Both the position numbers and the translations under genes were made by a program. Source: Heterotrichella gracilis (lineage: Eukaryota; Sar; Xanthophyceae; Tribonematales; Xanthonemataceae). From it: a DNA stretch of 64,000 bases. This document shows, in pieces, positions 8,173 through 53,500 of this stretch (its first letter is position 1; each line of letters opens with the position of its first letter). The notes below the pieces were generated by a model. It had not been told where the DNA came from, did not search any database, and was given only the letters and a program-made list of their open reading frames with translations. The stretch covers positions 81,650 to 145,649 of the forward strand of contig JAULBX010002445.1 of assembly GCA_032358255.1 (NCBI GenBank), given 5' to 3'.

Positions 8173-11100
8173 TCAGTCGGACTCCCGAGGTTGCCCACCG
8201 GTACCGCTGGCAGCGCTTGTGCTGACAGGTGGCGGCGCCACGTCAAACATCACCTCCCGCATGTACCTGGCCATGGCAGCACACGCAGGGTCACATAAAA
8301 AGGTCTGGTACATGAAATGCTGGACACTGGGGGACAGGTATGTCTGGGTCGTCAGGGTTGAGTGTTGGTTTAGGGTCCAGGTGGCATTGATGCCAGCACA
8401 GGTGGGTGCCATATCTGTGGCGGCACGCACATGCATGTACTTGGCATGGCAAGTGGCATTTTCATTCTTGCACCCACCTGCCAGCAAAGTCTTCATTCCC
8501 TTTTAAAATTTTAATTTCCCCCTTTCCCCCTTCATTTTCTCCCTATTTTTGGCACCCACCTTTCGGCAAAGTCTGGTGAGAACGCCGCCTCCAGCACGCG
8601 CCTTGTCTTGTCGTTACGCAGCTGGAACTCGCAGTAGCGCTGCTGGCACTCGAGTACCTCCGCCTGCCGCTGCGCCCTGGAGGAGTAGGGTGGTAGGGTA
8701 CGGGTCAGATGGGGTAGAGCCAGCGCCACCACACAGGTGTAACGACCCCAGCGCCACCTAGGGTACCACCCACGCTCCCATACATCATCAGCCTGCTACT
8801 TTGGGGTCTTGGAGTTCACCCCCACTTGGTGGCTTAATTGTGCTGCGCCAACCTTGCAACCTGCAAGATTGCGCGCTTGGACCGTGCATCGTAAACCCTC
8901 TGCCCTACAACCCTAGCCATGGGGCAATGTCGCACAACCCCCACGCCCTCTGCCTACTTAAGGACTCAGGCTAAAGCGTGTACCCCATAATAAATCCCCG
9001 TACGTGCTCGTTTCAACGGGCTGCGCCAGCCTGGCACCCTGCAGGAACGCCCGGTGCAGGGCCACAGCGCAACCGAAACCCTAAACCCTTACACTCTAAA
9101 CCCTAGGGTAGCACCCAGCGCCCCAGGCGGCACCAACGCCAAACCTACTACTTGAGGGTCTAGGATTTTATCGCTCACTTGTTGGTTTGGATGGGCTGCG
9201 CCAGCCTGGCGACCTGCAGGAACGCGCGGTGCAGGGCCACTGCATAGCGTATGAACGAGGCCAGCTCCTCCGATGTCACTGGGCGCACGATGATGCACAG
9301 GTCCGAGAAGATGGGCATGCCCCAGGGGGGGATGGAGCGGTTGCTCTCCAGGCCAAACTCCGACTGCAGGCGCCTGCGGCAGGATTAATGTTTTGCTTTA
9401 AATGTTCAAATCCAGATCAGGGGTGTTTAGAGGATTAGGGTTTGGGGTTTAGGGCCACAGCGCAGCGGATGAGCGAGGAAAGCTCCTCGGAGGTCACTGG
9501 GCGCACAATGATGCACAGATCCAAGGAAATGGGCATGCCCCACGGGGGGATGGAGCGGTTGCTCTCCAGGCCAAACTCAAACTGCAGGTGCCTGTGGCAG
9601 GATTACGGTTTAGGTGCCGAGGGGATTAGGGTTTAGGGTTGCTTGTAAGCCAAGCTCGGACCGGGGCGCCTGGAGCAGGGTTGAGAGTCAAGGGCTTCAG
9701 AGGATCGGGGGTCAAAAATGCTTTGAGAACCCACATGCCTGCTGCTGCAACAATGATGCACATTGGCGCACAGTGAAAATCGGCAGGAAAAGATGGCAGG
9801 GGGTCTAAAGTGTGGGAATAATGACTCACGATGCCAGCTGCGCAAAGACGGGTGGCAGGGACCGGTTGCGCGCCACCGGGCATGGGTCCATGATGGCCAA
9901 TGACACTCGGTCTCCATTGCCCACCATATCCAGCGACAGGATTGGCACGTCGAACTCGGGATTGGGGTACATCACGCAGTGGAGGACCTGCATGGGATTG
10001 CGATTTGGGATTGGGTTGGGAAACAATAATCAGCTGCATTATGAACGCCCCCTGTGCTAAATGCTGCAGCAGAATTTGAAGAAATAGACTTTATTTTGAC
10101 AGATGTAACCATGCACCAGTCCCTTCCCTCCCTACCCTTTGACCACCCACCGCTTGTACCTACCCCCCTTGCACCCACCCACACCCACTCACCCCACCCC
10201 CACCTGCAGCCCACCTTGTGGATGCGCCAGCTCAAGGTGCAGCTTCCTAAACGCACAGCTGCTGTGCACGCAACTCGCAACTCCAATCTCTCCCATAAAC
10301 TCCACCAATGCATATTTCCCCCCTTATTTTTCACCCACCCACCCACCCACCCACCCCACCCCCACCTGTAGCCCATCCTGTCGGTGCGCAAGCTCGAGGT
10401 GCAGCTTCCTGAACACGCGGCTGTTGTAAGCCCGGTTCTCAATCTGCATGCGAGGCCATCCAGGCTCGTCCCGCTTTGGGGGTACCGCGTCGGAGTATCC
10501 CCACATGCCTGCCTTGCCCTCGGGGTCGCAGCTGTCACGGTATTTGAATTCCTGCAGTTGTAAAAGCTGTGTTAAGGTGTTTGATGCGCTGAGGTGAGGG
10601 ATTTATTGAGGGTTTTGAAAGGGTTCTCGAACTGCATGCGGGGCCACCCTGGCTCGTCCCGCTTGGGGGTACCGCCTCGGAGTATTCCCACATGCCTGCC
10701 TTGCCCTCAGGGTCGCAGCTGTCCCGATATTTGAACTCCTGCAAAGAATTGGAAAGGGGTTGGGAAGGGGATTTCACCCGATTCCACTTTTCTTTGATAC
10801 ATATTCTTTATTTGCTTTATTTAATTTTGATTGTTTTTCAGTCACATTTTCCAGCAGGTACAGCGCCAGCTCCATAGATGTATGGTTAAATGTGTCTATT
10901 ACAATTCTTTATCCATCCACTTCTTTTTTATTGTATATTTATGGTCCAGCGGGTACAGCCCCAGCTCCATCTCTCCAGCACCTGCCTCCACTCCCCATCT
11001 TAACTGCATATATTTAATTTCCATAACATTTATTTATTTCTATATTATGTACCTGGTCCAGTGGGTACAGCCCCAGCTCCATCTCCAGCACCTGCCTCCA

Positions 11101-11792: not shown

Positions 11793-12897
11793 GTTTGCCG
11801 CCTTGGCAAAAAATACTGCCTATATGCAACTGCACAGCCTCTATCATGGACACGCGGGCGCATGGGTGCACACCAGCTGACACACGGGTGCATGGTGCGC
11901 ACCACAATGGTCCCAGGGTTTTATACGTGTGCGCCATCGTGCAACACGCATCGGGTACAGTGCGTGCGCGCCATCCCTTACCTAGTGCCTTTGCACTCCA
12001 TCCTAGGCGCCCGGTAACTGGGCTTGGCGCTTGTTGAGCGCTCGGCCTGCAGCAACGATCAACAGAGCAAAGTGTTGTGGCTTGGCCTGAAGTATTGTTT
12101 GACTAGGGTGACATGCTTCAGAGGGTGCAGTCATGAGGTTTGGTTCCACTGCGGCTGGCCAAAGAGTAAACAAAGTCGTGCATGTGTATATGCATGCATG
12201 CATTTCAAGACACAAGAATACCGTCCAATTCACGCCGTGACCAGGCAACTGTGCGTCCACACACGCGGGTTAAACCATATATGCGACAATATACTGCATG
12301 GAGGTGTCACCGTTTTCTCGTCTCACCTCAGTCGGCAGTGGGTGGGTGGTGGCTGCGGGACCAGACCAGCGCCATAACTACCCGTGGTGCTCGTGCTAAA
12401 GTTAGAGCATACTCTGTCTGAAAACATCGCTGAAGACGCTGAAAGGGCGGTTTTGTGAAGCCCAACTGAGCGCCCAACCCTATTTCTACTTGGTGTGCAA
12501 AGGCTAGGGCACACATGGGGGCGCGAAGTCGCTGCCTGGAATACTGTCAGATGTATCCCCTATGGAGGCTCCCGTGGCACAGTATATGAACTGCATCGAG
12601 ATACGTGTACGTTAGGCCCTGTCCTGGCTGATAAGTACAGACGCTCGCAACCCCTGACTCAAAAGCGTGCACCTAGTCTAGCTGGCACCGGAGATACAAA
12701 CTTTTGCGCTGCCCATATACAAGCCAACAGCAAGCGAACGCTAGTCTTTGCACTTCGCCAGCTGCCCCAGCGAGAGCCAAACGCTTGTTTTTGTCCCTTG
12801 CGCGCTGCGCTCCGTTGCAAGGTTGTCGTGGAGGCGAGTTTACAGGGCAGGGGGTTTTGGGCGCTAGCCCCGATCGGGTCTCCCAGCTCGTGCCAAG
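11793..12897. other. Divergent spacer between pcyA and the ABHD13-like gene
   Basis: This region should hold the promoters of both genes. A TGCATGCATGCAT box lies near 12190-12203. No coding segment was recognised; the open frames at 12495-13025 and on the opposite strand overlap each other and show no family pattern. Confidence 0.4.
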
Positions 12898-15800
12898 ATG
12901 CTGCAGCTGGTATTCCGGTGGTGTGTGCGGGCGGCAGTGGCGGTGCGTTTGCTGTTACTACCCCCGCAGTGTCTGTCTGCACCGCAGTTGGATGTGGTCC
13001 ACTCGCGTACTGGGCCTCGCAGTGACCTAGTCCTATACCCACGGCTGTGTGGTTTTCCGCAGGTGGGCGGTCTTGCGGGACTGGCGTTCACCCTGGTGGT
13101 TATCTTCCAAGAAAAACTGGTGCGCCGCGCTGTCTGTGCGCCCATTGGTTGTCAGTGCTAAGCTGCTGTGCCACACGTATGCAATGCATGCATATGGCCC
13201 GGGGTGCCGCGTACAACCTCGGCATTATCACCCCCGACATCGCCGGAATCTGGAGGGGTAGAGTTTGACGACAATTGAAAGTCTAGGCTTCACCCACCGT
13301 GGCGGTTTGAGCCAGTATTTCAATACTGCCACGTCGTTAACGGTGTGTCATATGCATGCATGCATACGCACGACCCACCTGGATAGTCAGCTTCCCTTAC
13401 GCCTTTAGGGGCGAAACACCGTGGCGGCGACTGACGTTTGAAGGCCCTGTTTCCTATTTTCCATTTAGTTCACCGAAACCGAGAAGGTCCCCAGTTCACT
13501 GCCACGTTTCCTCACCTTAGTGCGGTTTGAAAAGGAAGGGATCAGGCAGCCACACCCTACCCCTGCTGACAGCCTTGTGTGATTTCTCAGATATACGTCC
13601 CCCGCATACCTGGTGTGCCCAGCGAGTACCCCTACTTCCCCGACCAATTTGGCCTCGAGTATGAGGTGCGCCTGCTGGGTGCAGTACCCTACAACCCTGC
13701 CCATACCCGGGTTCACCCTCACCGTGCTGTGCTGTCACTGTAAAAAATGCACGAAAATCTGTACTGGTTCAACGTGCTCTGCCTGTACCTAGCTTTCCTG
13801 CCACCCACGAGTGCATACAGGTGGGGTTTTTGCCCCCGCCCACTTTGGAGCAGCCAGGCAGGAAACACCCTCCTCCACCTTTCGCGCTTTGGCATGTGAC
13901 ACATTTTATCACCGTAACATTTGACACCTGCCTGCCCGGCCCAGCATGACCTGTACATCACAGCTGCAGGTACCTCCGTGCTGCACGCCTGGCTCAAGTG
14001 CCCTTGCCCCGCCAAACATCACTTTTTTGTCGCGGATGCGCACAAGGCCCTGCCCTCGCAATTGTTGCAACCTCCTATGGAATCCTACCTTACTCATCTC
14101 GCGCTTTGCGGAACTAGCATGGGTCTAATAGGTCTAACGGCAACTTACTCATTTTGCGCTTTCCGCCCCCGCAGGACCTGTACATCACAGCCGCAGATGG
14201 CACTGTGCTACATGCCTGGTTCATGTGGCAGAAGGGGTGGACCGCAGCCCGCAGGGCCACCCGCCCCACGGTGATCTTCTTCCAGGAAAACGCAGGCAAC
14301 ATGGCCTTCCGGCTGCCCTTCATGCGCCTCCTGGCTCGCCAGCTGAACGCGAACGTGTTCATCCTCGGGTAGGTGGTAATGGCGGTGGCCGTGGTGGTGG
14401 TGAGGGCGGGGGAGGGGTTGATGGTGGTGGTTGTGGCAGCTGTGGCGGTGGTGGTGTTTATGAAAGTGGAACGCAGGCACCAGTCGTGACCTACACCTCC
14501 TGCGGGGCCTTGTGCGCCTGCTCAATGCAAATGAGTTAATCTCACAATGGGCTGAGCAAGGGACCAGCTACTGACGAAAACCCTGTTTTCATCCGTAATC
14601 CTATATTGAATATAATATAATATAATATTCCAACCCTGCACAGGTACCGCGGCTATGGGCTGAGCAAGGGAACGCCCTCAGAGGCAGGCCTCAAGCTGGA
14701 TGCCCAGGCTGCGCTGGACTATGTGGCTGACAGGCGCGATGTGGACGCAGGCAAGATCATGCTGTTTGGACGGTCGCTGGGCGGGGCTGTGGCGCTGGCT
14801 ACCACGCTGGCCAACAAGGACCGGGTGAGTGCATTAGGTTTTGCACTGGATTCTGCTGCACTCTGGGTTTCATTGTGGTGGTTTGTGTATGTGTGGCCCA
14901 TTTTAGACACATTTGGCAGAAGCCTGCCCATACTGTCACCCTTAGCCGCTGGTGCCGACCTGACTGCTACTTTTGCTGTTTGGGCGGTCGTTGTGAGGGG
15001 CTCTAGCTACCACGCTGGCTAACAAAGACCGGGTGAGTGGTGGACTGCTGTGATGCGTGCTGTGTAGGAAATGTTCTGGTTAAAGGTTGCGTGGTCACAG
15101 GGGTACCGTACATTGTTTAGGGTTCAGGGTTTAGCATTTTGCGTGGTCACATCCATCCTGGTTTTGCATGGGCGGGTTGCTGGCGGGGGTACTGTAATCG
15201 TTTAGGGTTCATGATTTTACAGCCTGAACGGCCATTGCAACATTTTCTCCCCCCCAAAACGGCCCCATTCCCTAGCACATGGGGGCAGCTGCGGTGTCCA
15301 CCTTCTGTCCGTTCGCTTGTTAAATCCTATGGCGTTTACCTGAAACTCACCCCCCACTCTGCCACCCACCCGCAGGTGCGTGCGCTGGTGATCGAAAACA
15401 CCTTCCTATCTATCGAGGACATGGCCTATAAGGCCATTCCCGTGCTGGCACCCTCTGCCACTGGTGCATGGCTTTCTGCTATAACTCGGCTGCACTGCTA
15501 GAATACATGCAACTACCCCCACCCTCAATTTACCACCCTCTCCACCTCTCATGTTGAACCCCCCCTTCATTCCTGTAGGTGCGAGCGCTGGTGATCGAAA
15601 ACACCTTCCTATCCATCGAGGACATGGCCTACAAGGCCATCCCCGTGCTGGCACCCCTGGTGGGCCAGGGCAAGGCGTTCAACTTCCTGGTGCGCAACAA
15701 GTGGCGCAACTACGAGGTTCTGCCGCAGCTAGGGGCCAAGCCGATTCTGTTCCTGGTGTCGCTGCAGGTAGGGTGATGGGGGGTGGGTTGCTTGGTACCG

Positions 15801-16694
15801 CTGCGTGTATGGGTGGGTGGCATGCCGGTGCTCGCATCCACGCATCACAATCAATTGGCTATTCTTCAATCCCCACACCCCAAGATTACCATTTTTCGAA
15901 TGCCTGCAGGACGAGCTGGTCCCCGCTTCGCACATGCACGAGCTGTTCGCGCTGCGCGAGCAGGTGCCCGGTGGCTGCCCCCACTGGGTCGAGGTGCCCA
16001 TGGCGCACTCCCACCACATGGACGCGTATGAGACAGAGAGCCGGCGGTACTGGCAGGTGCGGTGGCGCCACATTCTTGCTAGGGTTTGACTAGGGAGGTT
16101 GCACTGGTTAGTGACACGTTGCAGGGCGTGGTTGGATTGAGTGTGGCAAGTGGCGCTGGGGGTCTAGCTACAGAACTGGGTCAAAGTTGGGACGGTGCAC
16201 TCTCATGGACGCGTTTTAAGGTTCTCAAAGTTGGGTTTAGGGTTAAGGTTTGTGTAGGCTGTGCGCGCCTTCTTCCTGCAGCTCATGGCACAGGGTTGTG
16301 GGTTCTCAAATACTTTTGGGGTTTAGGGTTCTCACATCTGTCCCCCCCCGGTGTAGGCTGTGCGCGCCTCTTTCCTGCAGTCCATGGCCCTGGGTTTAGG
16401 GTTCAGATATTTAGGGTTTAGGGTTCTCACACCTGTCCCCTCCCTGTGTAGGCTGTGCGCGCCTTCTTCCTGCAGTTCATGGGGCCGCTGGAGGAGGGTA
16501 TGGAGGTGGCTGCGGAGGTGGCACAGGTGGCGCCCCAGGTGGCCCCACAGGTGGCGGCCCCGGTGGCGGCCCCTGTGGCGGCCAGTGGCAGTGGCGCAGG
16601 GGGGGAGACGTCACAGGTCCAGGCAGGGGAGGAATCAGAGGGGGACGATGACGAGGAGTACGAGAAGGTGGAGGCGGAGGATGGGAGCATGTGA
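12898..16694 (+). CDS. ABHD13/BEM46-like membrane-anchored alpha/beta hydrolase
   Basis: Eight exons join in phase: 12898-12942, 13063-13119, 13591-13665, 14175-14368, 14644-14824, 15579-15767, 15910-16056 and 16452-16694, giving about 376 residues. Near the N-terminus a hydrophobic helix (GGLAGLAFTLVVIFQEKL) is followed by the family's YVPRIPG, as in ABHD13, BEM46 and WAV2, which are single-pass membrane serine hydrolases. The nucleophile elbow is GRSLGG. The segment VIENTFLSIEDMAYKAIP matches the family region after the elbow. The acid is probably the Asp of QDELVPASHM, and the base is one of the His residues in MAHSHHMDAY. The last exon adds an Ala/Val/Pro repeat and an acidic tail (GDDDEEYEKVEAEDGSM). 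The physiological substrate is not known for this family. The first 15-codon exon is the least certain. Confidence 0.85.
13941..16392. repeat. Truncated exon copies inside introns of the ABHD13-like gene
   Basis: 13941-14010 copies the start of exon 14175. 15006-15039 copies the end of exon 14644-14824 including its donor. 15374-15453 copies the start of exon 15579. 16256-16295 and 16352-16392 both copy the start of the last exon (16452), with TTTAGGG-type tracts between them and the true exon. Each copy retains an AG acceptor or GT donor but breaks off early. Confidence 0.88.
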
Positions 16695-27198: not shown

Positions 27199-30100
27199 AT
27201 GGAGACGGGTGCTGTCGCTTCGTACCAAATAAAGTACACGCAAGTCCTGGGGCGACAAGTGCCGGTGGTATGCCAAAACGACAACGGGCCATGCCCTCTC
27301 TTGGCGATTGCCAACGTGCTCCTCCTGAGGAACCAAATCAGCCTGCCTCCAAACGCCCCAGACGTATCCCAGGTATGACCCACACGCAGGTCGTCACCAA
27401 AACCTTGCAAGGGGGAGTCAGGCAGGGTCCACAAGTGGAGGTTTGTAGTGACTCATGCCACACACCATGCTAACATTGAAGCGGGTGGTTGCATACATAC
27501 ATAAAGGAGGGGTCTACTTGGGGCTGGGTCTTGGTAGCGGCGTGAGAATGACTGGACTGTATGGCGTGGGGCCACTGGTTGTGGGTGCATCCCTCCATCA
27601 GGGCACACATGTCACCACAACTGTGAATGTAAGCGTGACTTTTGGTACCCCACTGCTGATGTCACAGGAGCGGCCGATTGCCCTAGTTGCAGAGAGGCTC
27701 CTAAAAATGCCCTGGCGTGGGCTACAGGTCGTGAATGCCTCCGTCCTGGGGTACACATGTTACGATAAGTAGAACTGTGACTTACCCTACTGCACTGCAT
27801 GGCGCAGGAGCGACTGATAGCCCTGGTGGCAGAGAGACTCCTGGACTCCAACAACGTGGAGGGCACAGATGCGCCTCCCGAATACGTGGCCAACCTCCAA
27901 AGGAACATCGCGGATGCCATCGGCAGGCTCCCCAAGCTGAGCACTGGCATTGACGTCAACGTGCGCTTCCATGGGGTCAAGGACTTTGAGTTCACCGATG
28001 AGATCGCCATCTTTGATCTGATGGACATCGGACTGGTGCACGGGTGGTTGGTGGACCCCCAGGTGCGTGGGGAAAACCCTAGGCGTCACCGTAAACCCTA
28101 AGCCCTAGGTGTCAGCACAACACCCTAAACCCTAAGCGCGCGCTTCCATGGGGTCCAGCTTGGGCTAGGGCCCTAGAGCTTTGGGTTCCCTAACCCTAGG
28201 GCTTTGGGTTCCTGAAGGACATGGGCCTGGTGCATGGCTGGCTGGTGGACGTCGGTGCAACAAGAGCTATATTGAGTTGAAACCCTAAACCCTAATCTCT
28301 ACCCTGTGCAGGACGCCTTGACGGCAGCAGCAATTGGCAACAAGAGCTACACCGAGCTAAAACCCTAAACTCTAAACCCTAGCTCTAAACCCTAACTTTA
28401 AACCCTAAACCCTATCCCGTACCCTGTGCAGGACGCCCCGACGGCAGCCGCCATCGGCAACAAGAGCTACAACGAGCTCGTGGAGGAGATCATCACGCAC
28501 CTGGGGGGCGAAACACCCTCCACCCCCACCCCCACCCCCGCCTCCACCACCCTGGCTGTGGACCAAGCCAGCCTGGCATCAGCGCTTGCATCCGCCATGG
28601 CAGCAACCACTAGTGGGCAGCAGACCCCTGCGCTACCCTTGCCTGAGGTGAGTGTGTGCAGCTAACCCTAAGCCCTAAACCCTAAACCGCCATGGCAGCA
28701 ACCACCAGCGGCCAGCCGGCTGCTGCGCTGGCCTTGCCTGAGGTGAGTGTGTGCACAAGTTAACCCTAAACGCTGGGCTCTACTTCTTAAATGCATATCA
28801 GCAGTACAGCCAGGTGAGCAACCAGCCTTGCACCAGGAAGCGCGATGCAACCCTGCCATGGCATGTACCACCCTGATTGCCTAGGGACGATTTAATCAAA
28901 TGATCAACTTTTGAAGGAAACGTCACTCAACGATCACTGCGCTGTGCCCACTGTGCAGCACAACCAACCCTGAAAGCCCGGGGACAGTCGTATTTTAATG
29001 ATCTACTCCAATGTTAATAAAATTGTAACCAACCCAACAATCACTGCGCTGTGCCCACTGTTGCAGCCGCAACCCGATGCACCCAGTTCTGCAGAGGAGG
29101 TGGCACCCCCAGCACCCGCCCTGCAGCTGGAGGTCATTCCCGAGTCCAGTCCTAAGGGGGTGGATCGGCCGCAGGATGGAGTCAGATCGCCGCTGGAGGC
29201 ACGGCCCTTGACCTTCTCACCTTCGGTAAGTGGACACGTGTCCTCAGCCAGTTAGATCAACCCCACGATTAAACCCTTGCCATTGTGGCTGTAGTAATAG
29301 TCACAATCCTCAACACCTGCTCCATTCCTGTCAATGCTTTTCATTAATACAATTGTTTCTCGACCTTCACACCCTCATCTGCACATCAAGCGGAGGCGGG
29401 TGGGTTTTGGTGGCGAGCTGTCCTACGCTACGCCACATCTTGCGCCCCCAGCTGTCCCCTCAACGCCTGAGCCATACCCTTCCGATTACTTGTAGCTGCC
29501 GTTCCGCAGACTTCCAACACATAAATCACCTTTATTTACCCGTTTCTTTTTCCATGTGCAGCAATCTGAGCTTTGGCGTGCTGCTCCCACGCGTCCTACA
29601 GCACAGTTGCCATGATGAACCAGATGATGCATACCCTCTCCTTGTCCTTGCAATTGTGGTTGTTCACAACTCCAATTCCAATCGCAACATATGATTAATA
29701 CGCTGAAATTGTCATGAGGTTGTAATCCTGTGTGTTTCCACGTGCAGCAGTCGGAGTCCAGCTTTGGCGAACTGACCTACGCGGCCTCCTACGGCACCAG
29801 CGCCATGATAGACCAGATGATGGGGGGCATCATCCACGACACCCTGCTCAAATCATTCGACAGCTACCACATGATGTCGCCTACCAACAGCAATGGGGGG
29901 CGATCCAGCGTGAACCAGCCGGGGTCGGATTGGCCCACGCCGCTGGCCTCGCCGCTGGGTCAGGGGTTGGAGAGCCTGGCGTCGCCAGGTGTCGGCGCCG
30001 CAGGTGCGCTGCTCAGGGTTTGAAGTTTAGGGTTTAGGGTTCTGATTGGCCCACGCCGCTGGCCTCGCCGCTGGGCCAGGCGCTGGAGAGCCTGGCGTCG

Positions 30101-40102: not shown

Positions 40103-43100
40103 ATGGGCAGCTTAAAGCCTAAATTACTGCGCACGCTAGTGAGGGCTACCAGGCACCTACCAGTCTTTTTGTACGCTGCGTCCCTGGTTGCCCTCTGCCT
40201 CCTCCCTGCCTTTCCAAGAAAGGTGTTCTTCGACGAAAACGCGCTCCTCGTAGGACAAGCAGGCTCTGAAATAAGGTAACAATTCTATTGTATTTGTCTG
40301 ACGTGTCAAAGCACTAGGGCACAAGCTGACGGGCTGCTAGTTGAAGGAGGCCTCGTTGAGGTGGACCAAGGACCCCCATGACCCATAAACCATGTCCTCA
40401 ACCCCTCTCTCTTGGCCCATGTGCTCTAGCCCATACCCAGTCGCCACAAGCCCCTTCTCATGACCCATTTCCCTTAAACCTCCCCTAACCCATGTACCCA
40501 TACTGGCCCCGCAGAAAGTCAGATGCACTGAGACAGGCATTGAGGTGGTTCAAGAAAGGAGAAGGGAAAGAAGCAACTCCCTTCAACCTGTTGCTGGAGG
40601 TTCTAAAGAACAACAACCTCCGCCTCTACAACCTCACCACCAGCCAGTGGGGCCTTGAAGGACACACCTCCTGCACCACTTGGCACACAGCGGTGCACAC
40701 AGCCAGGGGCGATGGCACCGAGTCCACCGTGGTTGTGACTCCAGTCTGTCAGGGACAAACCTGCGGAGTGGACAGCTTTGGAAATAAGTTTGCAATTGCT
40801 CTGGCGGCAAGCACATTAAGATACCTGAGCAAGGTTCCCTGGTTGGCAAAAGATGTTGTGTGGGTGTTTCCCGATGCGGGGTGCAACCTGCTTGAAAGCA
40901 CAGAGGTAGGAGTGCAAAGGGCGCATTTTAACCCCTAACCCTAAACCCTGCTTGAAAGCACAGAGGTATGTTTGCAACGGGCGGGAGCATACCTAAACCC
41001 TTTACCTTGGTACCCCGCAAAACCCTTGAGCAGCACATGCTGGTAGTGGCTGAGCGGGGTGTGTTTAGCTTACGGCTGTAATCACTTGATAAAAACCTCC
41101 ATGGTCATGCATTCCATACGCCCACATGTGCACGCGCCTCAATTCCCACATTACCAGGGTTAAGTGTTTAGGGTCTCACCCATTCCGCCACCCCCGCAGG
41201 CTTGGCTGGCACACTACCACGGCGACCTCCCCTCTCCTCCCCCTTTCCCCCCTTCCGGCCTCATCCAGCAAGCCCTCATCCTGGACCTGCGCCACGCGGG
41301 CTCCAGTCTGGCGGGCCTGGAAACCCTAACCGAGGGTTATGGTGGCCAGCTGCCCAACATGGACCTTTACTACCTTGTGGCCTATCACGTGGCTAGGGAG
41401 ATGGGGGGTGGTGGTGTGCACATGGGGGTGCACAGGCAGGGCTGGGGAGGGGGGCTGGAGTCTGCGCTGCGCTCCCTGCTGGGGGACCAGGTAGGGTGGT
41501 GTAGGGTGTAGAATTCTCATATTGCGTGTACTGCCAATATTGCTGCTAGATTCATTGCACTCTTTTGCAATTTCCCCCATTTCCTTCCTAGTGCCAAATC
41601 CTGTGCACGAGTATCGCCCAGCCCTAGTGTGCCAATATGAGCTTGTCCAAGGAATGGTAAATTCCTCCCCCTTCAGCCGTCCACCTACCTATCCACAATG
41701 GCTATGCTGCCATGTGGCCGCCAGCTAGCTTCTGGCGTGCCCACAAACAGTAAACCTTAAACTCTCAACTTGATCCTCTTGCATGGTCAATTCCTGCAGG
41801 ACTCCGCCTACCCCTCCAAGCTGGCGCTGATGCTGCAGTCAGGCTGGCAGCTGGCGGCAGGCGCACCCACAAACCCTTGACCCTAAACCCTAAATTCCTG
41901 CAGGCCTCCGCCTACCCCTCCAAGCTGGCGCTGATGCTGCAGTCAGGCTGGCAGCTGGCGGCAGGCGCACCCACAGGCGCACATGCGGTCTTCAGGCAGT
42001 ACGGGGTGGATGCGGTGACAGTGGCTGCGGTGCAGGAAATCGAGGTAGGTGGGTGGGTGGGTGGGTGGGTGGGTGCTCACCACTGGTTCAGGGTTTAGGG
42101 TTAGGGTTTAGGGTTTAGGATGAAGAGTTTAGGTGGGTGGGTGGTCTACCGCTGGGTACCACCCCACCATCCTTTGCACATATTGTTGCAGATGTTTATT
42201 CCACATCCTGTCCAAAGACCTTGTGTAGGGGCACACTTTGTTCAAGAATGGGACTAGGCCCTGCCACCAATTGCCACTGCACTGAAGCACGCCCTGCGCA
42301 GATGCAATGATATATGCAGGATACTCCACACCCAATTCAGCCTAACCTGTTGTAAACTACGTCACCGTATTCAAAGCCGCTGCAATGCCCTGTGCAGGGC
42401 GCCCCACGCCCTGTCCGAAGTCTTGGTCAAATTCTACCACCCCTGGCAACTGCGCTTGAGCACATCCTGCGCAGCTGCAACAACCTGGAGGAGAGGCTGC
42501 ACCACTCCCTCTACTTCTACATGTTTTTGTCCCCCTGGGAGTTTGTGAGCATCGGCACCTACATCGCTCCCCCTGCCATGCTGCTGATGGCGGTGGCGGT
42601 CAAGGTGAGGAACCCTAGCCGAGGGTATCCCTGCCATACATGTTATAAATATGACAAAACTGTGCTAGGATCAAAGTGCCTGGTGCCGCATGGGGGAGGC
42701 TGGCTGTTAGTCTAGCTGTAATGGTGGATGGACGTGTAAATAATCCCATACTAGTTTGGTAATTGGAAGGCAATTAGCTCAGGTAACCGTTGTGCTTGCT
42801 GGCTACCAGCTGAATGAGAGCTCACTCGATGCATGCAGGTGCTCATCCTGGCTGCCAGGCACCAACCACCCACCTACGATCAACCGCCCTACGATCAGCC
42901 GCCCTGCGATCAGCCGCCCCACGATCAGCCAGGTTTGCAGGCGGGGCGGGCCATCGCTGCAGCACTTGTCTTCCACAGTGTTGCTGGCTGGGGAACGTAT
43001 TATAGCGCGCGGGTGTCTATCACGGGGAGGATTTCACAGCACCCACCCCACTTTGATCAAGTGCTTCCCATTTGGCTCTCCTATTGGGCCTTGGCTGCAG

Positions 43101-44386: not shown

Positions 44387-47300
44387 TCAATGCAGCCCAT
44401 CCACATTGCCCGCATGCGACCCCCCCTCCCAGTCCCCACCACCCCCCTCCTCCCCCACCAGCTCCACCCCACCCTCCCCATCCAGCCCCTCCCCCAACCC
44501 CGCACCGCCACCGAGCCCCATCGGCATCCCCGGGTGCGGGTCATCGGGATCCACCATCGGAATGTACCCCCGATCCCCGCCCATTCGCGGCAGATTTCCG
44601 GTCCCCGGTAACGCGCCCCCATCCTCCCTGGGCCTCAGCCAGCGCTGGGTGAATAATATGAGAAGCGGGGAGGAGAGGGTGAGCAGGCCAATAATGAGCC
44701 ACATGGCTCGCCCGTTGCACATGGTGGGGTCTGGCGGGGAGGGGGATGCGTCTTGGCATGCGCCCGTGTCGGGGCAGTAGCGCTGCAGCAGGGCGCCTGC
44801 GGCAGGGAAGAGGGCTTAGGGGTAGAATTCCATCTGTAGCGATGAAGAAATGAGAAGGATTTGTGCCGTGCTTAGGGGCTTAGGGACGTGCTCATAGCCT
44901 AAACCCTAAACCAGTATAGGCACCCCTTGCCCCGCTCCTGGCGGCATGCTCATATCCCTACGCGTACATTCTAAAACCCTAATGTGGGCAAATGTCTACT
45001 ACACTAAACCCTGAACGCCACCACCACATGCACCGCGCACCTGACAGCATGCCAGTTGGCAGCTTGGCGGCAAAGAGCGGTGCCGATGCCAGTGCGGTGA
45101 AGATCCCCTCCCGCCCCTGTGGCGCCACCGACATGCTGTAGTCGTACCAGCGGGGGGACCACACCGCCTCGCCCAGGGAGAGCAATATGGTGAAGATGAC
45201 GGGGGACCAGGCTGCAACGTGGAGATGGGGAGTTGTGTCATGCTTTGCAGCTGCCAACAGTTGTCGATAGGGCAGACATGCATTCTGCGACCAGGTTTGC
45301 TGCCTAGCATGCAGGTGGGATATAAACCTTCAGGGTTTTACAATGTTCACACCGCACACCAAGGGGAGTGATGTAACAACGATGGTGTCAGGGATCCAGG
45401 CTACAGAGAATAAGCTCAGCAACCCTTGTACATTCCAAAAAGGGTGTCCCGCAAGTGTCGCTATTATTATCGGTAATAAAACTGTGCCCTTACCACTGTC
45501 CATGCCTGTGCACCCTAATCCCTACCACCTGCCCCTGCTGCATGCCCCGTACCTGCATCAGCCACCACCATGGCAAAGGGAGACAGTGAAGAGAAGTAGG
45601 AGCCGTAGTGAATCAGGTAAAAGTGGCTCAAGTCGGTGGTCATTGCTCACATGTCCCAAACAACATCCCTCACGCATCCCCACCGTCATGTCATTTCCTC
45701 ACAAGTAGCTACCATTACCCATCACACACCCCTACCAAGAAGTCATTCCCTCCATAAACCCTAACCTTGTCCCTACCTGCATCAGCAACCACCATGGCAA
45801 AGGGAGACAGCGAGGAAAAGTAGGAGCCGTAGTGTATCATGTCAAAGTGGCTAAAATCGGTGGTCATTGCGCCCACGATGGGCACCAGTATGATGATCAT
45901 GAAGGGGTTGATGCCATACACCGCACCCACAGGGTAGTCGCACCCAAACTTCCTGCACCAGAGATTAGGGTTTAGCGGTTGGATTGGGGATTAGCATATA
46001 GAGTTTAGTGTTGGTGACATACGCTGTACCCACGGGGTAGTCGCACCCAAACTTCCTGCATCAGGGATTAGGGTTAGGGTTTAGGGTAAAGGGTGGATGC
46101 TGTACACCGCGCCCACAGGGTAGTCGCACCCAAACTTCCTGCAGGCATAAATTAGGGCTCAGCAATTGGTTTTAGGGTTTAGCGTATAGGTTTTAGGGTG
46201 GATGTTATACACCGTGTTCACAAGGTAGTCGCACCCAAACTTCCTGCTCAAGAGGTTAGGGCTCAGCAGTTGGAAGGGTTTAAGGTTTAGGGTTTAGTGT
46301 AGACTCCTTAAATTGCACCCACAGCGCAGTCCACCCATACAGCCTGCACCAGGATTAAGGGTTTAGCGTAGATGCCTCACCCAGTCACACCCAACCTCTC
46401 TTACACCAGGCATAAAGATGTAGGGGTGCAGGTGTGCCACTTTGTGTGGATTCGCGGCGTTGCATTGTGCAACATTATCCCAAGCCATAATTGGTCACAT
46501 GGCTTCAAACACGCGCAGATGATGCAGCTGTTTCAGCAGTACACCGGGGTTCGCACCTACCTCTTTTCGTATTTTGGCAGCGTTGCATCCAGGTGCCTGA
46601 AGATCTGCTTGAGGTTGATGGTGACCAGGCACATCCCCAGGTACTTCCAAAACTCACGCAGCACGCACACCCCCTGCATGCAACATTGCTGACGTCAGCG
46701 TTGTCACACATGTGACATGAGCGTGCACCTTTTGTGCTGTATATATTTACGTATACATATGCTGTGTCACACTTGCACTTGATTTTTGTGGGCGTAAATA
46801 ACCCTAAACCCTGTACCCAAAGGCATGCTGGGACCGTTTGCGATTGGGACTGTAACACTGCATTTTTCTGTCTTCTTTCTGTACCGCTCTCACCTTGAGC
46901 GACTCCCAGCCAGCCACCACACCCTGCCACAGCGCCTCCCTATCCCACCCCCAGGCGGGCAAAACCCTCTTGTAGGGTATCGCCACAGGGTCGGAGGGTG
47001 CCGGTGCAGAGCCCAGCACCGGCTCCTTCTCCCCTTCCACAGGGTTTGCTTGGTGTGGGGGGGCTGTTTCCACCTCTTGCAGCATGCAGGAGATGATGAT
47101 GCCAGCTGCAGACCCAATGCACCCTGTGGAAATTTAAGCAGGTAAGGCATGCATTTCAGTTGTTCTGTGAAAGTCTCATACAAGAGACCGAGACTGCCTA
47201 ACAAGGTAAACACCCCTCCCTGTGACTGCACAATGCACACCGACCTTCCCTCTATCTCACTTCCGTCCATCACACATGATGCCACATACCGCCTGTTTCT

Positions 47301-49202
47301 GCTGCTGAGCAGGTGGTGCGGCGCCACCCCCGCCAACCCAAACTCAACCTGAGCATGACTGCGAAAAAGTCCATGACCATGCCAAACAGCTTTTCATGCA
47401 ATGCACCATGTGGGCATTTTTGCTTGGCCGGATCTGTCACCACAAATGCACCCACGTGGTACCAGAACGTACCCTACCTGATGCCACAAACAGCCTGTTG
47501 CCGCTGCTGAGCAGGTGGTGGGGGGCCACCCCCGGCAGTCCCAGCCCATTCTTGAGCGTTATGGTGAACAAATCCATGACCAGGCCCACCCCAAATGCCG
47601 CAATGTTCATGAAGGCGTAGAACAGGGAGAATGCAAACCCTCGGTTGCCCTGCACAGCGGGTGGCTTATTGATAGTTATACCATTATTAATTTTTATAGT
47701 CTTTATATTTTAGTTCATGAATGTGGAGAAGGCAAACCCTCGGTTGCCCTGCACAGCGCGCGATACTGATGATAATGGCATTATCATTTTCTAAGTCGTA
47801 ATATTATTGTTCATGAAGGCGCAGAACAGGGAGAACGCAAACCCTCGGTTGCCCTGCACAGCGGGTGGCTTATTGATAGTTCTACCATTATTTATTTTTA
47901 TAGTCTTAATATTTTAGCTCATGAATGTGTAAAAGCGAGAGAAGGCAAACCCTCCGTTGCCCTGCACATTGCGCGGCGCCATCAAACGAAAGTAAATGGT
48001 ACTAATGGAATAGTAAATGCTAGCACAAGAATACCGATTGCCCTGCTTAATAATGCGGCACTAACGATTGCGGTACTTTGTAGCTTATTGTTATTAAGAA
48101 AGGTAAAATGAACAGTACATGCGTATGCGTAATGTGCATCCACCTGACTGCTACACCTGGTGACAACTGCAAGTCATGCTGTCGGGGCACTGCAAATCAG
48201 CGTCTTTGAATACCAGATCAAATTACAGCCCCCACCATGAGCTCACCTTGCTACATGTGCGTGTGCCATCACCGTGGTTAGGGTTTGGGTGTCGGTTTAG
48301 GGTTTGTGAGCTTGAAGGGCACCTTTCTACCTCGAAAGCGTGCATACCTGTATGTCGATGGCATGATCAAGACTAGGCTTGAAATACAGGGGTACAAGGT
48401 TTGCATGGCGCCTGCCTACCTCGCTGGTGTACCTCTTGATGCCGATGGTCATCACAGGCACTCCCAGTGCCCCAGCCATGGTCATGGGCCCCAGCAGCGC
48501 ACACTTCATAACGGTGATAGACTGCGTGGTGGCCACAACCCACCTGGGGAGGCAGGCGGAGGAAAGTATAATAAAAGCAATTGAACAGAACATTTTCACC
48601 TTATTTAATTGATTGTTTTTCCGTGTGAAGTGCAGCACCGATGAAGTTTGGGGAAAAGGTTAACACTATACCCTAACCCTAACCCGCAAAACCCCACACC
48701 CTACCTGGACACCAGGTGTAGCGTGATGCACAGCACCAGGAAGTGGCGCACTCCCAGTGAGTCATTGCAGGGTGTTACCCGTGGGACCCCAACCCTATGC
48801 TGCCAAACCCTAAACCCTAAACCCTACCTGGACACCAGGTGCAGAGTGAAGCACAGCACCAGGGAATGTCGCACCCCCATGAAGTCTATGAGGCCAGACA
48901 GGATGAAGCCATACAGGGTGAGCAGGGTGCCCCACAGGCCATACAGCTCGCCAGCCTGCAGGGGGTGGGGTTTAGGGTTTTGGGGTTGCCTGGGCTGTGC
49001 ACCAAGGTGTGTGGTTTGGGAGAACAAGTGTAGAGCGTTGGGTGCGTAGGGAAGGCCAAGGCAGATTTGTATTGTAGGGTTGCTCGTCACCTTGTAGTCA
49101 GATATGCCAAACTCGTCTGTCATGTACAACGTGAAGACCACCGACAGCGAAAAGTAGTTGTACGACTCCAGCACCTTGAGCAAAAACACCAGGTGGAGGT
49201 CC
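44387..49202 (-). CDS. Major facilitator superfamily transporter (5' end not found)
   Basis: Minus-strand exons in phase: 49202-49091, 48955-48828, 48543-48420, 47649-47478, 47123-46894, 46673-46561, 45952-45777, 45211-45041 and 44796-44387, coding about 545 residues. The first exon found starts inside a codon, so a short N-terminal exon lies upstream. The order of features fits a 12-helix MFS or peptide-transporter-like carrier: LESYNYFSLSVVFTLYMTDE, AGELYGLWGTLLTLYGFIL, then GLIDFMGVRHSLVLCF (helix 2-3 loop), KCALLGPMTMAGALGVPVM, NRGFAFSLFYAFMNIAAFGV, a large central loop, INPFMIIILVPIVGAMTTDF, VIFTILLSLGEAVWSPRWYD, and MWLIIGLLTLSSPLLILF at the last helix. A Gly/Glu-rich cytosolic-type tail of about 80 residues follows. 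The substrate is not evident. Introns carry many exon copies. Confidence 0.82.
45543..48755. repeat. Exon-boundary copy arrays in the transporter introns
   Basis: 45543-45650 copies the end of exon 45952-45777. 46014-46330 holds about four further copies of that exon's start (core GTAGTCGCACCCAAACTTCC on the plus strand) at roughly 90-base spacing, each followed by TTAGGGTTTAG-type tracts. 47290-47395 is an almost complete second copy of part of exon 47649-47478. 47663-47960 holds three more copies of the start of that exon in an AT-rich tandem array. 48705-48755 copies the end of exon 48955-48828. Confidence 0.88.
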
Positions 49203-50586
49203 CTGCGTCAAGGGAGCGTCACCAGTCTTATAAGCCTGCCTTGAAGTCTGCGCAGGGCTCAACCTCCACATTCTGCTATAAAACCTGTAACGACAAACCA
49301 ACAACCCAGAACCCATCCTGTAGCGGTGTTCTGAGGAGGGGTCTGGTTGGTTCAAACCCATGCATGCATATGCAGTCAACCCATGCATGGAACCACTGCC
49401 GAGTCGTACCGAGGGCATCCTTTCAGGCTCAGAAAGCCCTGTTTGGTTTGATTGTAGCAAGCTCGAAGTGCCCCTTTCAAGGCCATCACGGCAAGTTGGC
49501 TTGTGCCGAGCGAACCCGAGTTACCCCCATCATTTGCAAGCATGCAAAGTGAAGCCAAAGTTTTCTACATCTCGGGCTCGACCTGTTCCGGAGCGTTCGA
49601 CACGTGGGTTGTTTGCACTGTGAACGGGCACCGTTTGCACAGTTGTATGCTATGGCCCATACCCATAGTATGCAAACGTTGAACACAGGCCCGTGACTCA
49701 GGCCTGTGACTCATTCCCGTGAAACCCTAACCCTCAAACCCTAAACTCATACCCTGGCCATCCTGGCCCGGCAGTGATTGGCGAAACTTTGCTGCAGTAT
49801 TAGCATTCAACGTATGCTTGACAAGTAGAAGGAGGTATATACCGTAATGGCAGCACTGCGCAGTCAGAACAGGATCACTGGCCAGACATCTCCGAGACAG
49901 TGTCAGTGAGAGTGTCGGTGAATACAATAGTTGCTAAAATTGCCGCTATTGCACAAGACATATCAAATAAATACACGCGCCTTTGCAATAGCAAACTATG
50001 TCCTGCATTCCAGACACGCCTGACCTTTGCATAAGAAGCCGCACTGTGGTACCTTCAGGGATGGTACATGCTCGTGGTGACGATGTATTGCAGTAGCATA
50101 TGTACCATTTACCAACACCTGAGACCATCACCAAAGCACCGTAATGCGGGCTTGTTATGCAAAGGCCAGGCGTGCCTTTAAGAAAGGGACAAACCCTCGA
50201 TGGAGGTAAAAGCTGGCAAGAGGAGGCGGTGTTTGCCGTGAGGGAGGTGAGCAATGCATCGGCGCTGAGCATTCGGCTATCCAGGTTAAAAGCTTAGTCA
50301 ACTACTATCCTGCAACTCTATTGCTGGTACCTCCCCCTCCCTTTGCCATGGTTGAATTTATGCCGCAGGGTCAGCAGCTGACGTGGGCGCTCCACACCCT
50401 AAACCCTAAACCCCAAACCCTAACAAAGTCCAGCAGCGCTTCAGCTAGCTCAGCGGGCTTCTCTATGTGCGGGAAGTGGGAGCACGCCTCGATCCACACC
50501 AGCTGAAGAGTGACAATTCCTTCCCAATAGCTCCCTTGCAGGGACCTTGACCAGGAAGAGACGAGCGCTTCCCCCCCTCACCACGT
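49203..50586. other. Spacer between transporter and hydrolase genes, with an exon copy
   Basis: The missing first exon of the transporter should lie in the left part; I could not identify it. 50395-50505 is a copy of the last exon of the hydrolase gene (50640-50700) interrupted by CCCTAAACCCTAAACCCC. An ATGCATGCATATGCA box is at 49361-49375. Confidence 0.5.
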
Positions 50587-53500
50587 TTACCTTGATGTCA
50601 CAGGGTCAGCAGCTGGAGTAGATGCTCCAATAAAGTCTAGCAGCGCTTCAGCTAGTTCCGCGGGCTTCTCTATATGGGGGAAGTGGGAGCACTCCTCGAT
50701 CCACACAAGCTTGGAGTCAGGGATCTCCCGCCTGAACAGCTCCGCGTTCTTGGGATCCAGCACAGAGTCGTTGCGTCCCCACACAATGAGAGTTTCCTGC
50801 GGCCAAGTAAAACAAATATAGTTCAACATCAACAAATCTACACACATTGGGTGTCCTGCGGTAAACATTACAGCCCTAAAGCGAGATTCATCACGCACGC
50901 ACAAACTCGCCAGATAGATCAATGCTGCTGGGTATACCCCACTCCGATCCACTAGCCAAGCTCTCATTGGACAACTCTTTCCAATGTGGTGGATGGTGAC
51001 CAAACAATCGTGCTTATACCCTCTAAAGCCCTAAATCTATGACACCATGCCCCTTTAGTTGTCTAGGCAACCCTCAACCCACAGCATGGCCACCGACAAA
51101 CCCTTGCCTGGGGTATCCTGGGGATCAGGAGTAGCCCCCGCTCTGCATGACGGCATCCTTCCCTAGGATTATCAACCCACACCATGGCCACCGAACAAAC
51201 CCTTACCTGGGGTATCTTTGGGATCAGGCCGCTCACAGAGTAGCCTCCGCTCTGCATGAATGTATAACGTACAACCCTGACATATGAGACCATGCCCCTT
51301 AAATTGTCTATGCAACCCTTACCTGGGGTATCTTTGGGATGAGGCCGCTCACTGAGTAGCCCCCGCTCTGCATGAAGGCCACGTTGGCGTCCTGCCAGCC
51401 TGGCAGCCATGTGTGCAGCCGCCCCACCAGCATGGCATCCTCAGTGGCGAATGCCTTGTCATAGTAGCTCATGTCGTTTGCAAAGGTGCGCAGCGGGACG
51501 CTCCTCAGCAGCTGCCACAGGCACAGCACTCTTAAGTACTTGTGTTCATTTAATATGCCATGGGATTGTCCCTATATAAACAGATGTAAACACATCAACA
51601 CTAACCTCTGAATCTACTGTAGATCTAGGCCTCGAGGCCGCTTTGTGCTACAGTAACACTGTCTTCCCACACCATAAAGGAGTGCACTTAACCAACTTGG
51701 AAACAGTGAACAGAAGGGCAATGCTCTTCTCTTCGCTTGATCCTCTTCCTTGACCAACGCGCCTGTCCAAGGACAGGCTGCGTAGTTATTTATTTATTCA
51801 TTTATTTAACACTGTCTTAAACCCTTCAGAGTAAATCACAGACCCTCAACCCTATGCCACGCCTTGACTCTGAGCTCTGACAGGCAATGGTGACCCATTC
51901 CATGGATTTGCCCTTGCGCACCCACACTAAACCCTAAACCCTAAGCACACCTTGACTCCCAGCTCTGACAGAAAGCGCGGCATGATAAACAAGAGCCCCA
52001 CTACAATAATGCGCTGCAACACATGACGAAGATTACGACACCCTCACTCCCAGCCCTGCCAGGAGCGCCACCGCATCGCTATAACCTTGCACATCCGTCC
52101 TTAACCCTAAACCCTAAACCACAAGCGCACCTTGACCCCCAGCTCTGACAGGAATCGCGGCATGCTGGACAGGGGCCCAACCCCATCAATGTGGCCTTGT
52201 GCATCCACCAGCACCAGCTTTGCAACTGCATCGGGGTGGTTGACTGCAAAGTCGATGGCAGCTGTACCCCCGAGGCTGGTACCCACCAAAACCATGGGCC
52301 TGCCCACCTGTAATGCAGGCAAATGGGTCAGTCATCCACACTCTGTGAGGGACATTGGCCATGTATACATGCCGTAGATTCCAGGCGCGGAAGTTCCTTT
52401 AGGGTCAAGGGTGAAACCTACACCCTCCAGCTGTGCCCTGGACTGCTTCGGGGTGGCTGACTGCAAAGCTGGTTGCAGCTGTACCCTACACCCTAAACCC
52501 TAAAGAAGGGTTGCCCCCCATGCTAGTGCCCAACAAGACCATGGGCCTGCGCACTGGTGGTAGTTGTTGACCACGCCCAGGGTCACGCTTGATCAGATAC
52601 AGTAACCAGGGCACCACTGTGACTGCAGTTGTACCGTGGTGCAGTACATCCGCACCTGTTCCTTCCAGAATGCATACAGGTGGCTGCGCTTCTGTTGGGG
52701 GCCCAACGGGATGTCTGCATCCCCGCCGAACCCGGCATCCGTGAACCCCCACCCCACCAGGTCCACCGCCCACGTCTCTGCATGCTGCTCCAGCCGAGGC
52801 AGCAAGTACCTGAATAAGCAGCAGGAAACAGGTTCTAGATATGAAACAGCGGGCGTGTAAAGGCAAGACGCAGATGTCAGCAGACCCAACAGCTCAACAG
52901 ATATTCTTTAGGGTCAAGGATTAAGGGTTTAGGGTTCAGGAGCACGCAGCAGGAGCAAGGAGCAAGCGGCAGAATACCCGACCTGGGGCACGAGCTGCCC
53001 AAAGCTATGTAGGGTTGACGGTCAGGGTTTACACACTTTAGGGTTAAGGTTAGGGTTAGGGTTAGGGTTTACCTGAACTCTAGGCAGGAGCTATCAAAAC
53101 TGTGGAGCAGCACCACCGGGGGGATATCCTGTAGTGCAGGGTCTCTGCTGCTTGGTCCCCCATTTGCTGCATTTTCTGTTGCTTGGCCGCTGGTGCCCGG
53201 CCCTATGTACGCTGTTTGTACCGTCCGCTGCATGGCGGGGACATATGTGGGGCACCGCCGCAACCGTTGCGCCATGCTGCAGGCGTACGGGTTGTTGATC
53301 TCGGCTACCTGCTCTGGGACGAAGTCTGGGTAGCTGGTTGTGGTGAGGGGGGCTGGCAAGGCTGAGGCTATGCGGGTGGCCTGCGACAAACAGACAGACA
53401 CAGCATGCGAGCTTCAGCAAGCAAGGTCTCGGTTCAGGTGCTCATGAGAGCGGAGTGTGTCTTGCAAAAGGAGAACGAGAGGTGCAACACGCAAAGGCCT

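Follow-up and report, generated by a model that had tools for sequence, protein, structure and literature searches.

The introns in a 64-kb stretch of Heterotrichella gracilis DNA (the window, meaning the whole of the stretch that was analyzed) contain truncated copies of the edges of neighboring exons, and many of these copies are joined to one another by short tracts of the telomere-like repeat TTTAGGG or its complement CCCTAAA. In this arrangement, denoted X-telomere-X (or X-tel-X), the same sequence X is found on both sides of a tract. The copies are adjacent and almost always in direct orientation, and this is the geometry that the filling in of a staggered break would leave. The best explanation, and in our judgment a probable one, is a staggered break with telomeric addition to one end, fill-in of the overhang, and end joining.

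Materials and Methods

Repeats were surveyed by self-comparison of the window and in twenty 10-kb tiles (200 kb) of the same genome that were chosen by position. A repeat pair was considered local when its copies were <2 kb apart, and pairs farther apart were left out. Low-complexity pairs were dropped when the dinucleotide entropy was <3.0 for the window or <3.2 for the tiles and for the junction 10-mer count. Overlapping copies were left out of the latter count, which covered 108 pairs from the window and the tiles.

In the anchored test, a telomere-like tract had to lie between two copies of one flank, with each copy within 6 bp of the tract. The flank tests left out tracts with <300 bp on either side, and the unanchored flank-similarity test left out loci L006 (which overlaps L005), L029 (which is inside the window), and L030-L032. 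An additional 27 loci (7 of L001-L008, plus L033-L052) were picked by matching patterns of three or four repeats in a fixed register.

Results

Self-comparison of the window gave 45 local, non-simple direct repeat pairs, some of which are overlapping pairs within one array, and 0 local inverted pairs. The pairs extend from 8,792 to 52,554, are spaced by 57-392 bp, and are ~70-99% identical. These values are in line with the original prediction, made from the sequence alone, of at least 30 copies in direct orientation between 8,990 and 52,560. The twenty tiles were found to contain 87 direct and 2 inverted local pairs. Pairs were present in 16 of the 20 tiles and absent from 4, and 23 of the 87 are in a single tile (L019); the pattern outside the window is widespread but uneven. 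The pairs are thus all direct in the window and nearly all direct in the tiles, with adjacent copies, as tandem duplication from staggered-break fill-in requires.

The window has 44 exact telomere-like runs of at least 11 bases, with 24 reading CCCTAAA and 20 reading TTTAGGG. When degenerate tracts of at least 14 bases with full flanks were considered, 17 of 44 were found to have the same sequence on each side, both copies lying within 6 bp of the tract. The earlier statement that many copies end precisely in such repeats was right, and "most" would have been wrong. Alignment of the two flanks of each tract, which had been suggested as a check on the prediction, demonstrated that 65 of the 154 tracts in the window and the sampled loci are X-telomere-X, compared with 1 of 924 mismatched flanks (Fisher p = 6e-60). 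Both copies abut the junction in those 65 cases, as a fill-in duplication requires, and X is 16-276 bp in length with a median of 70 bp, near the 20-150 bases that had been anticipated. Counted by cluster (tracts within 300 bp), the anchored duplication is present in 39/94 clusters. The two tract strands are about equally represented among the anchored events (34 C and 31 G), which fits the fill-in model because either end could be extended.

The unanchored test gave similar flanks for 59/154 tracts versus 0/154 mismatched flanks, 0/154 inverted flanks, and 35/600 random positions. In a first run with 100 tracts, 35 had similar flanks versus 0 mismatched, 0 inverted, and 10/100 random, and at a looser score of 45 the values were 68/154 tracts versus 1/154 inverted and 41/600 random positions. 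An exact telomeric 10-mer is present in 39 of the 108 non-overlapping pair junctions from the window and tiles, where 10.8 would be expected at random, and it is more common in the more identical pairs (2/14 at 60-75% identity and 4/7 at ≥95%). The other 69 junctions have no exact telomeric 10-mer, and therefore many duplications may need no telomere. Conversely, 89 of the 154 tracts have no anchored duplication and the share of tracts with similar flanks does not climb with tract length, and therefore insertion without duplication seems to be common too.

The cleanest example of the arrangement is found on the plus strand, and its two copies are more alike than those of any other pair in the window. 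The first copy of X (41,789-41,871) has a 3'-splice-site-like sequence and an exon-like start that is cut by the tract. The second copy (41,893-41,975), recognized by self-comparison and by reading of the sequence, is 98.8% identical to the first, and its open reading frame runs on downstream. A CCCTAAA tract (41,880-41,894) lies between the two, the outer edges are without telomeric sequence, and the anchored score is 152. On the minus strand, a 161-bp repeat pair (9,233-9,393 and 9,451-9,611; 87% identical) in the gene that the original prediction named as a putative pcyA has telomere-like sequence in the gap.

Gene identity was checked for the ABHD13-like, MINDY, and alpha/beta-hydrolase genes, the pcyA, DUF3411, NDPK, GAA1, and transporter names of the original prediction being putative. 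In the ABHD13-like gene (plus strand), the 3' splice site of an exon at 14,163-14,227 is copied at 13,936-14,000, with a gap that is free of telomeric sequence. An exon end with its 5' splice site (14,760-14,831) is copied downstream at 14,974-15,039, as determined by self-comparison and tblastn, and the exon start at 15,577-15,656 has an upstream copy at 15,374-15,453 that is 95% identical; tblastn finds both. At 16,233-16,482 on the same strand, an exon-like start, recognized from its reading frame only, is copied twice in a serial array with TTTAGGG tracts between units of ~97 bp.

In the MINDY gene (plus strand), self-comparison and homologues identified two truncated copies of an exon start, each ending in CCCTAAA, before the homologue-matched exon (28,257-28,478). 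An exon end with its 5' splice site is followed by a CCCTAAA tract at 28,663-28,689 and then by the copy (28,592-28,769). Another exon end in the MINDY region and its copy (29,921-30,119; 92% identical) are separated by a TTTAGGG tract at 30,024-30,042, and a further exon end with its 5' splice site and copy (32,102-32,235; 93% identical) has degenerate telomeric filler. The exons at the last three places are assigned from the reading frame.

The remaining examples are on the minus strand. At 45,902-46,370, self-comparison and the anchored test revealed serially arrayed repeat copies together with TTTAGGG tracts. The last exon piece of the hydrolase and its downstream copy (50,422-50,711) are 90% identical, with a tract at 50,396-50,413 near the far end of the copy. 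One hydrolase exon end has serial copies of the 5' splice site downstream (51,038-51,379), including a copy that tblastn finds at 51,263-51,207. Self-comparison showed that another has two downstream copies (51,842-52,181), with CCCTAAA tracts at 51,927-51,944 and 52,103-52,120. An upstream exon copy (52,442-52,554) is split by a telomeric tract at 52,490-52,504, through which tblastn reads. The parent exon (52,128-52,307) serves as a stand-in for the empty site, and this split copy is an example of tract insertion without duplication, inside an exon copy.

Enrichment at exon boundaries, another of the checks that had been suggested, was determined for three genes. An exon is involved in 19 of the 22 repeat pairs, 12 of these 19 being underlain by homologue-confirmed exon stretches, and 3 are intron-only, whereas uniform placement predicts ~68% intron-only pairs. 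The faster, unseen decay of intron-only duplicates that had been offered to account for a bias to exon edges is therefore probably not the whole cause. The duplicated spans make up 41-47% of the intron length in the three genes, and the alignable copies make up 21-31%. No wholly new intron was noticed during the classification of the repeat pairs.

TTTAGGG is a genuine terminal repeat in this genome since arrays of it begin contigs C70 and C140, and the same repeat is also internal. The three-repeat telomeric word has 834 exact genome matches (overlaps included) versus 0 for the reversed word. The four-unit word has 180 exact matches in 68.5 Mb when overlaps are counted; the 100 matches listed represent 53 separate places as counted by eye, two of which are contig ends. 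Matches to a telomerase RNA-binding domain and to a Ku domain are present in the genome, as are PolA-family matches, possibly including polymerase theta.

An alternative to synthesis of the filler by telomerase at the break is the capture of telomeric DNA that already existed, or copying through a template switch, by polymerase theta or otherwise. The presence of the PolA-family matches is compatible with such a source, and so are the registers at which the tracts begin and end. These are symmetric in unselected sequence (70 runs of at least 14 bases from the tiles and window; chi-square p = 0.60) and modestly polar genome-wide (start 170 versus end 212, p = 0.036; start 219 versus end 164, p = 0.006). 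The bases next to the long tracts point in the other direction. There is a preference for the junction T|GTTTAGGG, with T before 76 of 100 runs of at least 21 bases that start at the last G (the first 100 of 219 matches, by eye), and T after 27 of 100 such runs that end at the middle G (the first 100 of 164 matches, by eye; Fisher p = 4e-12 for the contrast). A T at the 5' end of the G-strand and not at the 3' end could result if synthesis was primed at one end. Among local runs of at least 11 bases, T precedes a last-G start in only 14/32. The evidence for telomerase itself as the maker of the tracts is mixed, and a captured or copied filler is rather unlikely in our estimation.

Three other measurements on the tracts were set aside. 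The register polarity of the local runs of at least 21 bases (start at T1 or T2 in 1/37, end at T1-T3 in 27/37) was discarded as biased because all 27 additional loci were chosen with fixed-register patterns. Junction microhomology was abandoned because neighboring tracts in the arrays drew the alignments into telomeric sequence, and 18/62 and 12/62 values were at the ceiling of 7. Head-to-head tracts within 40 bp, which extension of both ends would be expected to produce, numbered 1 versus 2 in the opposite order, too few to use.

In only 17 of 62 anchored events is the tract confined to the space between the copies, and many of the others fall within serial arrays, X-(tel-X)n. Therefore, amplification of units already holding a tract is possible, and the arrays may reflect repeated events, unit amplification, or an order in which the tract came first. 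In this last scenario, telomere-like tracts of earlier origin would be fragile, and the neighboring sequence would be duplicated when a break occurred or replication stalled there at a later time. Interstitial telomeric sequences are reported as prone to breakage (PMC11626172). A same-strand tract is present at one or both outer edges in 44/62 anchored events (17 + 17 + 10), which gives X-tel or tel-X units, and neighboring tracts within 400 bp share a strand in 91/116 cases. However, many of the outer-edge cases are in arrays of at least three copies, which repeated insertion explains equally well, and the 17 events with a tract only between the copies include the pair at 41,789-41,975, whose identity is the highest in the window. 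We regard a tract-first origin as unlikely.

The telomere-like motif could also be intronic by chance, in a conventional minisatellite that expands through unequal exchange or slippage. Such growth could produce serial arrays such as those at 16,233-16,482 and, with tracts, at L019:3187-3790, the tile that supplies 15 of the 24 anchored tracts found in tiles. X differs between loci, yet some loci are arrays of at least three units. The flanks of different tracts are unlike one another (0/154) while the heptamer is constant, and this makes slippage very improbable. An assembly artifact, in which haplotypes or mis-joined reads are placed side by side, is the least probable of all: the assembly consists of 903 contigs, but the copies are ~1-30% divergent, many are cut at telomeric tracts, the pairs are spread over most of the tiles, and a 1-kb query from the cleanest locus gives only the match to itself and short matches that overlap a further telomeric tract within the query.

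Discussion

In the mechanism that we favor, the DNA would break on both strands, for instance through two offset nicks, so that the single-stranded ends are long and complementary. Telomerase would add a few TTTAGGG repeats to one 3' end, and CST-type fill-in of the overhang followed by end joining would leave the added tract flanked by X at each end. Where an exon edge falls within X, the copy beside the intact exon would stay in use and the other would become an intronic pseudo-exon; duplications within exons would mostly be purged by selection. Recurrence at the same places would give X-(tel-X)n arrays and longer introns. We infer the staggered breaks, the role of telomerase, the fill-in, the end joining, and the choice of splice site, and the tract and the duplication presumably arose together rather than successively. 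The original prediction of telomeric insertion at staggered breaks stands insofar as tract and duplication coincide in a direct, adjacent geometry; it is weakened by the 89/154 tracts that have no anchored duplication and by the low number of single-tract events (17/62).

More tentatively, telomere-maintenance enzymes may routinely act on internal breaks in this organism. The X-tel-X scars and tandem duplications in the genome would then number in the thousands or tens of thousands (extrapolated from the 200 kb of tiles) and would be aimed at exons or splice junctions, and intron growth would largely be a by-product of telomere-style repair where exons had broken. This broader proposal is doubtful; if it is true, the positions at which genes break are recorded in a form that can be read. 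The telomeric filler is a direct mark of break-repair events, and the surviving copy of X is likely to represent the sequence before the break, even without a sister genome. A single genome therefore allows study, over evolutionary time, of where breaks fell, how long the overhangs were, and how the ends were repaired, and whether breaks favor exon edges can be asked in the same way.

Intron growth is usually attributed to transposons and slippage. In rice, Vaughn and Bennetzen reportedly described patch-mediated tandem duplications as natural insertions and ascribed them to staggered nicks; the tandem duplication is alike, but telomeric filler and a bias to exon edges are not known to be part of that account. 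In human and mouse cells, fill-in of complementary 3' overhangs at Cas9 breaks by CST-guided Pol alpha-primase has been shown to give small tandem duplications (PMC8355091). Those duplications are direct and adjacent, as they are here, and the telomeric filler is a feature of the present case.

Introns enlarged by repeated staggered breaks are described for the neointrons of Daphnia, with internal direct repeats in 55/90 (PMC4202315). The repeats shared with exons are 4-12 bp there, and the term "telomer" is absent from the text of that source, whereas X is 16-276 bp here and is accompanied by telomeric filler. Direct repeats of 4-30 bp at or near the borders of 213 introns have been read as traces of break repair (PMC11782384), in contrast to the longer exon-edge copies found here within the intron, often beside telomeric repeats. 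Tandem genomic duplication of gene sequence is reported to give rise to introns (PMC4974935) and alters intron structure as it does here, where existing introns are lengthened. In the open-access literature consulted, we found no description of intronic exon copies joined by telomeric repeats, which does not prove absence.

The interstitial telomeric sequences of primates and rodents provide the closest measure of scale. These are short tracts inserted at breaks, some with duplication, as in the present case (PMC2246262). Insertion with target-site duplication is given there as a minority, at 6/130 rodent and 4/25 primate loci, versus 65/154 anchored tracts here; the mammalian assignments rest on empty sites, and ours do not. 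The density is also higher than in mouse, with 180 four-unit matches (overlaps included) in 68.5 Mb versus 306 loci with at least four units in the mouse genome (PMC2246262). The earlier impression that the scale looks exceptional thus agrees with a scale that is high relative to mammals. Each step of the mechanism has already been described in other systems, and it is the scale and the concentration at exon edges that are new.

Telomere-like Tracts and Duplicated Flanks

The assembly that contains the window comprises 68.5 Mb in 903 contigs. TTTAGGG is the telomere repeat of this genome, since CCCTAAA arrays stand at the start of contigs C70 and C140; in contig C173, a TTTAGGG array reaches base 89,502. 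There are 834 exact matches to CCCTAAACCCTAAACCCTAAA in the assembly (overlaps counted) and none to its reversed control.

The 154 tracts analyzed came from twenty 10-kb tiles of the same genome (59), the window (44), and the loci around longer tracts (33 and 18). The 300 bases to the left of each tract were compared with the 300 bases to the right after the telomeric letters had been masked. At a score of at least 50, the two flanks were similar for 59 of the 154 tracts, versus 0/154 for flanks from different loci, 0/154 for inverted flanks, and 35/600 for random positions. In the anchored test, where one copy must end and the other must start no more than 6 bases from the tract, a duplication was found for 65/154 tracts versus 1/924 for the control. 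The duplicated flanks in these events are 16 to 276 bases long, with a median of 70. Counted by tract clusters, anchored duplications were found in 39/94 overall, 12/38 in the tiles, 11/26 in the window, and 10/19 and 6/11 in the two long-tract sets. The other 89 of the 154 tracts have no anchored duplication, which counts against a simple reading of every tract.

An exact telomeric 10-mer was found at the junction of 39 of the 108 non-overlapping pairs (10.8 expected), more commonly among pairs of higher identity, and degenerate telomeric sequence is present in some further junctions. The clearest examples are at 41,789–41,975 of the window, where two 83-base copies, 98.8% identical, are separated by a 21-base gap containing CCCTAAACCCTAAA, and at locus L047, where a 40-base TTTAGGG run is flanked by a short stretch that is repeated exactly.

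Two further results run against the simple reading that each tract marks one insertion with duplication. Flank similarity is flat over tract length (18/50, 11/37, 13/26, 6/13, and 11/28, from short to long), and the outer edges are free of telomeric sequence in only 17 of 62 strongly anchored events. Many of the remaining events sit in arrays of the form X-(tel-X)n, where X is the duplicated flank and tel the tract. These arrays may reflect repeated insertion, amplification of a tract-bearing unit, or breakage at a pre-existing tract.

Local Direct Repeats

When the window was compared with itself by BLAST, 45 direct and 0 inverted local non-simple pairs were obtained, which bears out the earlier claim that the partial copies lie in direct orientation. 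The twenty tiles, chosen by position as the sole criterion, gave 87 direct and 2 inverted pairs, and thus the phenomenon is widespread but uneven. The pair density is approximately 0.4 per kb in the tiles and 0.7 in the window; four of the 20 tiles have no pairs, and 23 of the 87 are within one tile. That tile (L019, G000:C11:60001-70000) is a local hotspot that also has serial arrays with CCCTAAA tracts. At 47604-47975 of the window, sub-copies of a repeat are separated by an AT-rich stretch (TTATTGATAGTTATACCATTATT) without telomeric sequence, perhaps another type of junction filler.

Exon Edges and Intron Size

For the ABHD13-like, MINDY, and hydrolase genes, exons were located from splice motifs and from tblastn searches using two homologues per gene; the reading frame was used where no match was obtained. 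Named hits among the best for the ABHD13-like protein were from Coccomyxa (55% identity), Trebouxia, and Myrmecia, and those for the hydrolase were from Micractinium (63%) and a "Tetstr1" protein (64%) that we take to be from Tetraselmis. For MINDY they were from Closterium (48%), Ostreobium (53% across half of the query), and Bryopsis (41%), with land-plant matches scoring just below the green-algal ones. We take the genome to be that of a green alga with no close relationship to any of the named hits. Within the MINDY gene region, a long open frame of low complexity at 30430-31411, with abundant Ala, Gly, and Ser residues, is a putative exon.

With exon edges set by hand to an accuracy of about ten bases, one copy overlaps an exon in 19 of the 22 pairs in these genes, the pair at 28925-29067 by one edge base. 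Twelve of the 19 are on exon stretches supported by tblastn; the other seven are supported by frame and splice motif (first bases 16251, 16252, 28592, 28925, 29549, 29921, and 32102). We read at least two of the three non-exonic pairs as copies of copies. Under uniform placement with the lengths from the anchored test, 66–70% of the intron-only and edge classes combined should be intron-only. The probability of finding 3/22 is 2e-7, with the pairs partly non-independent. Pairs that contain an exon, with one copy under selection, are expected to be lost at about half the rate; we think that this reduces the excess of exon-overlapping pairs without abolishing it.

Relative to the intact exon, 3′ splice-site copies are found upstream and 5′ splice-site copies downstream, the arrangement required of a tandem duplication that crosses the junction. 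Some truncated copies were detected directly, the residues VRALVIENTF... being matched twice by tblastn (15,322-15,453 and 15,540-15,767). In the hydrolase copy at 52,554-52,438, also found by tblastn, a telomeric tract breaks the reading frame, which continues beyond the tract. This case is an insertion that lacks a long duplication, and its empty site is the parent exon. Alignable copies make up 21–31% of the intron bases in the three genes, and duplicated spans cover 41–47%.

Proposed Mechanism

The substrate of telomerase is a 3′ overhang. In human and mouse cells, fill-in of complementary 3′ overhangs by CST-guided Pol alpha-primase, followed by joining, gives small tandem duplications, and long 3′ ends at telomeres are filled in by CST-Pol alpha (PMC8355091). 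At a break with complementary 3′ overhangs, extension by telomerase, fill-in by CST-Pol alpha, and joining would produce X-tel-X in a single step, and the tract could point either way. The orientations in the anchored events (34 C and 31 G) agree with this scheme. The genome has matches to the RNA-binding domain of telomerase and to Ku, as well as several PolA-family matches. At locus L036:575-615, TTTAGGG and CCCTAAA meet head-to-head within 3 bases, the pattern that would result if the two ends of a break were each extended and then joined.

Telomerase is the likely maker of the tract, and this is the least secure step of the mechanism. In its favor, T precedes 76 of the first 100 listed of the 219 G-strand runs of at least 21 bases whose first base is the last G of the heptamer, versus T following 27 of the first 100 listed of the 164 long runs that end at the middle G (both counted by eye), and the whole-genome register counts differ modestly (170 vs 212 and 219 vs 164). 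The preceding T may stem from a preference in priming, or it may have been copied from a base beside the template in the telomerase RNA. Against it, the end registers are symmetric in the unselected tiles and window (70 runs, p 0.60), and T precedes the last-G start in 14/32 local runs of at least 11 bases, less frequently in these shorter runs than in the long ones.

Comparison with Known Systems

Among the papers listed in literature searches, seen mainly as titles and abstract openings, we found no account that combines long flank duplications, telomeric filler, and exon edges across many regions of a single genome. This combination is probably new; telomeric insertion at breaks is already known. 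In mammals, some of the insertions come with a target duplication, at 6 of 130 informative loci in rodents and 4 of 25 in primates, and the mouse has 306 loci with four or more units (PMC2246262). The short direct repeats of Daphnia neointrons have been attributed to staggered breaks (PMC4202315), and direct repeats of 4–30 bp near splice sites have been described for 213 introns (PMC11782384).
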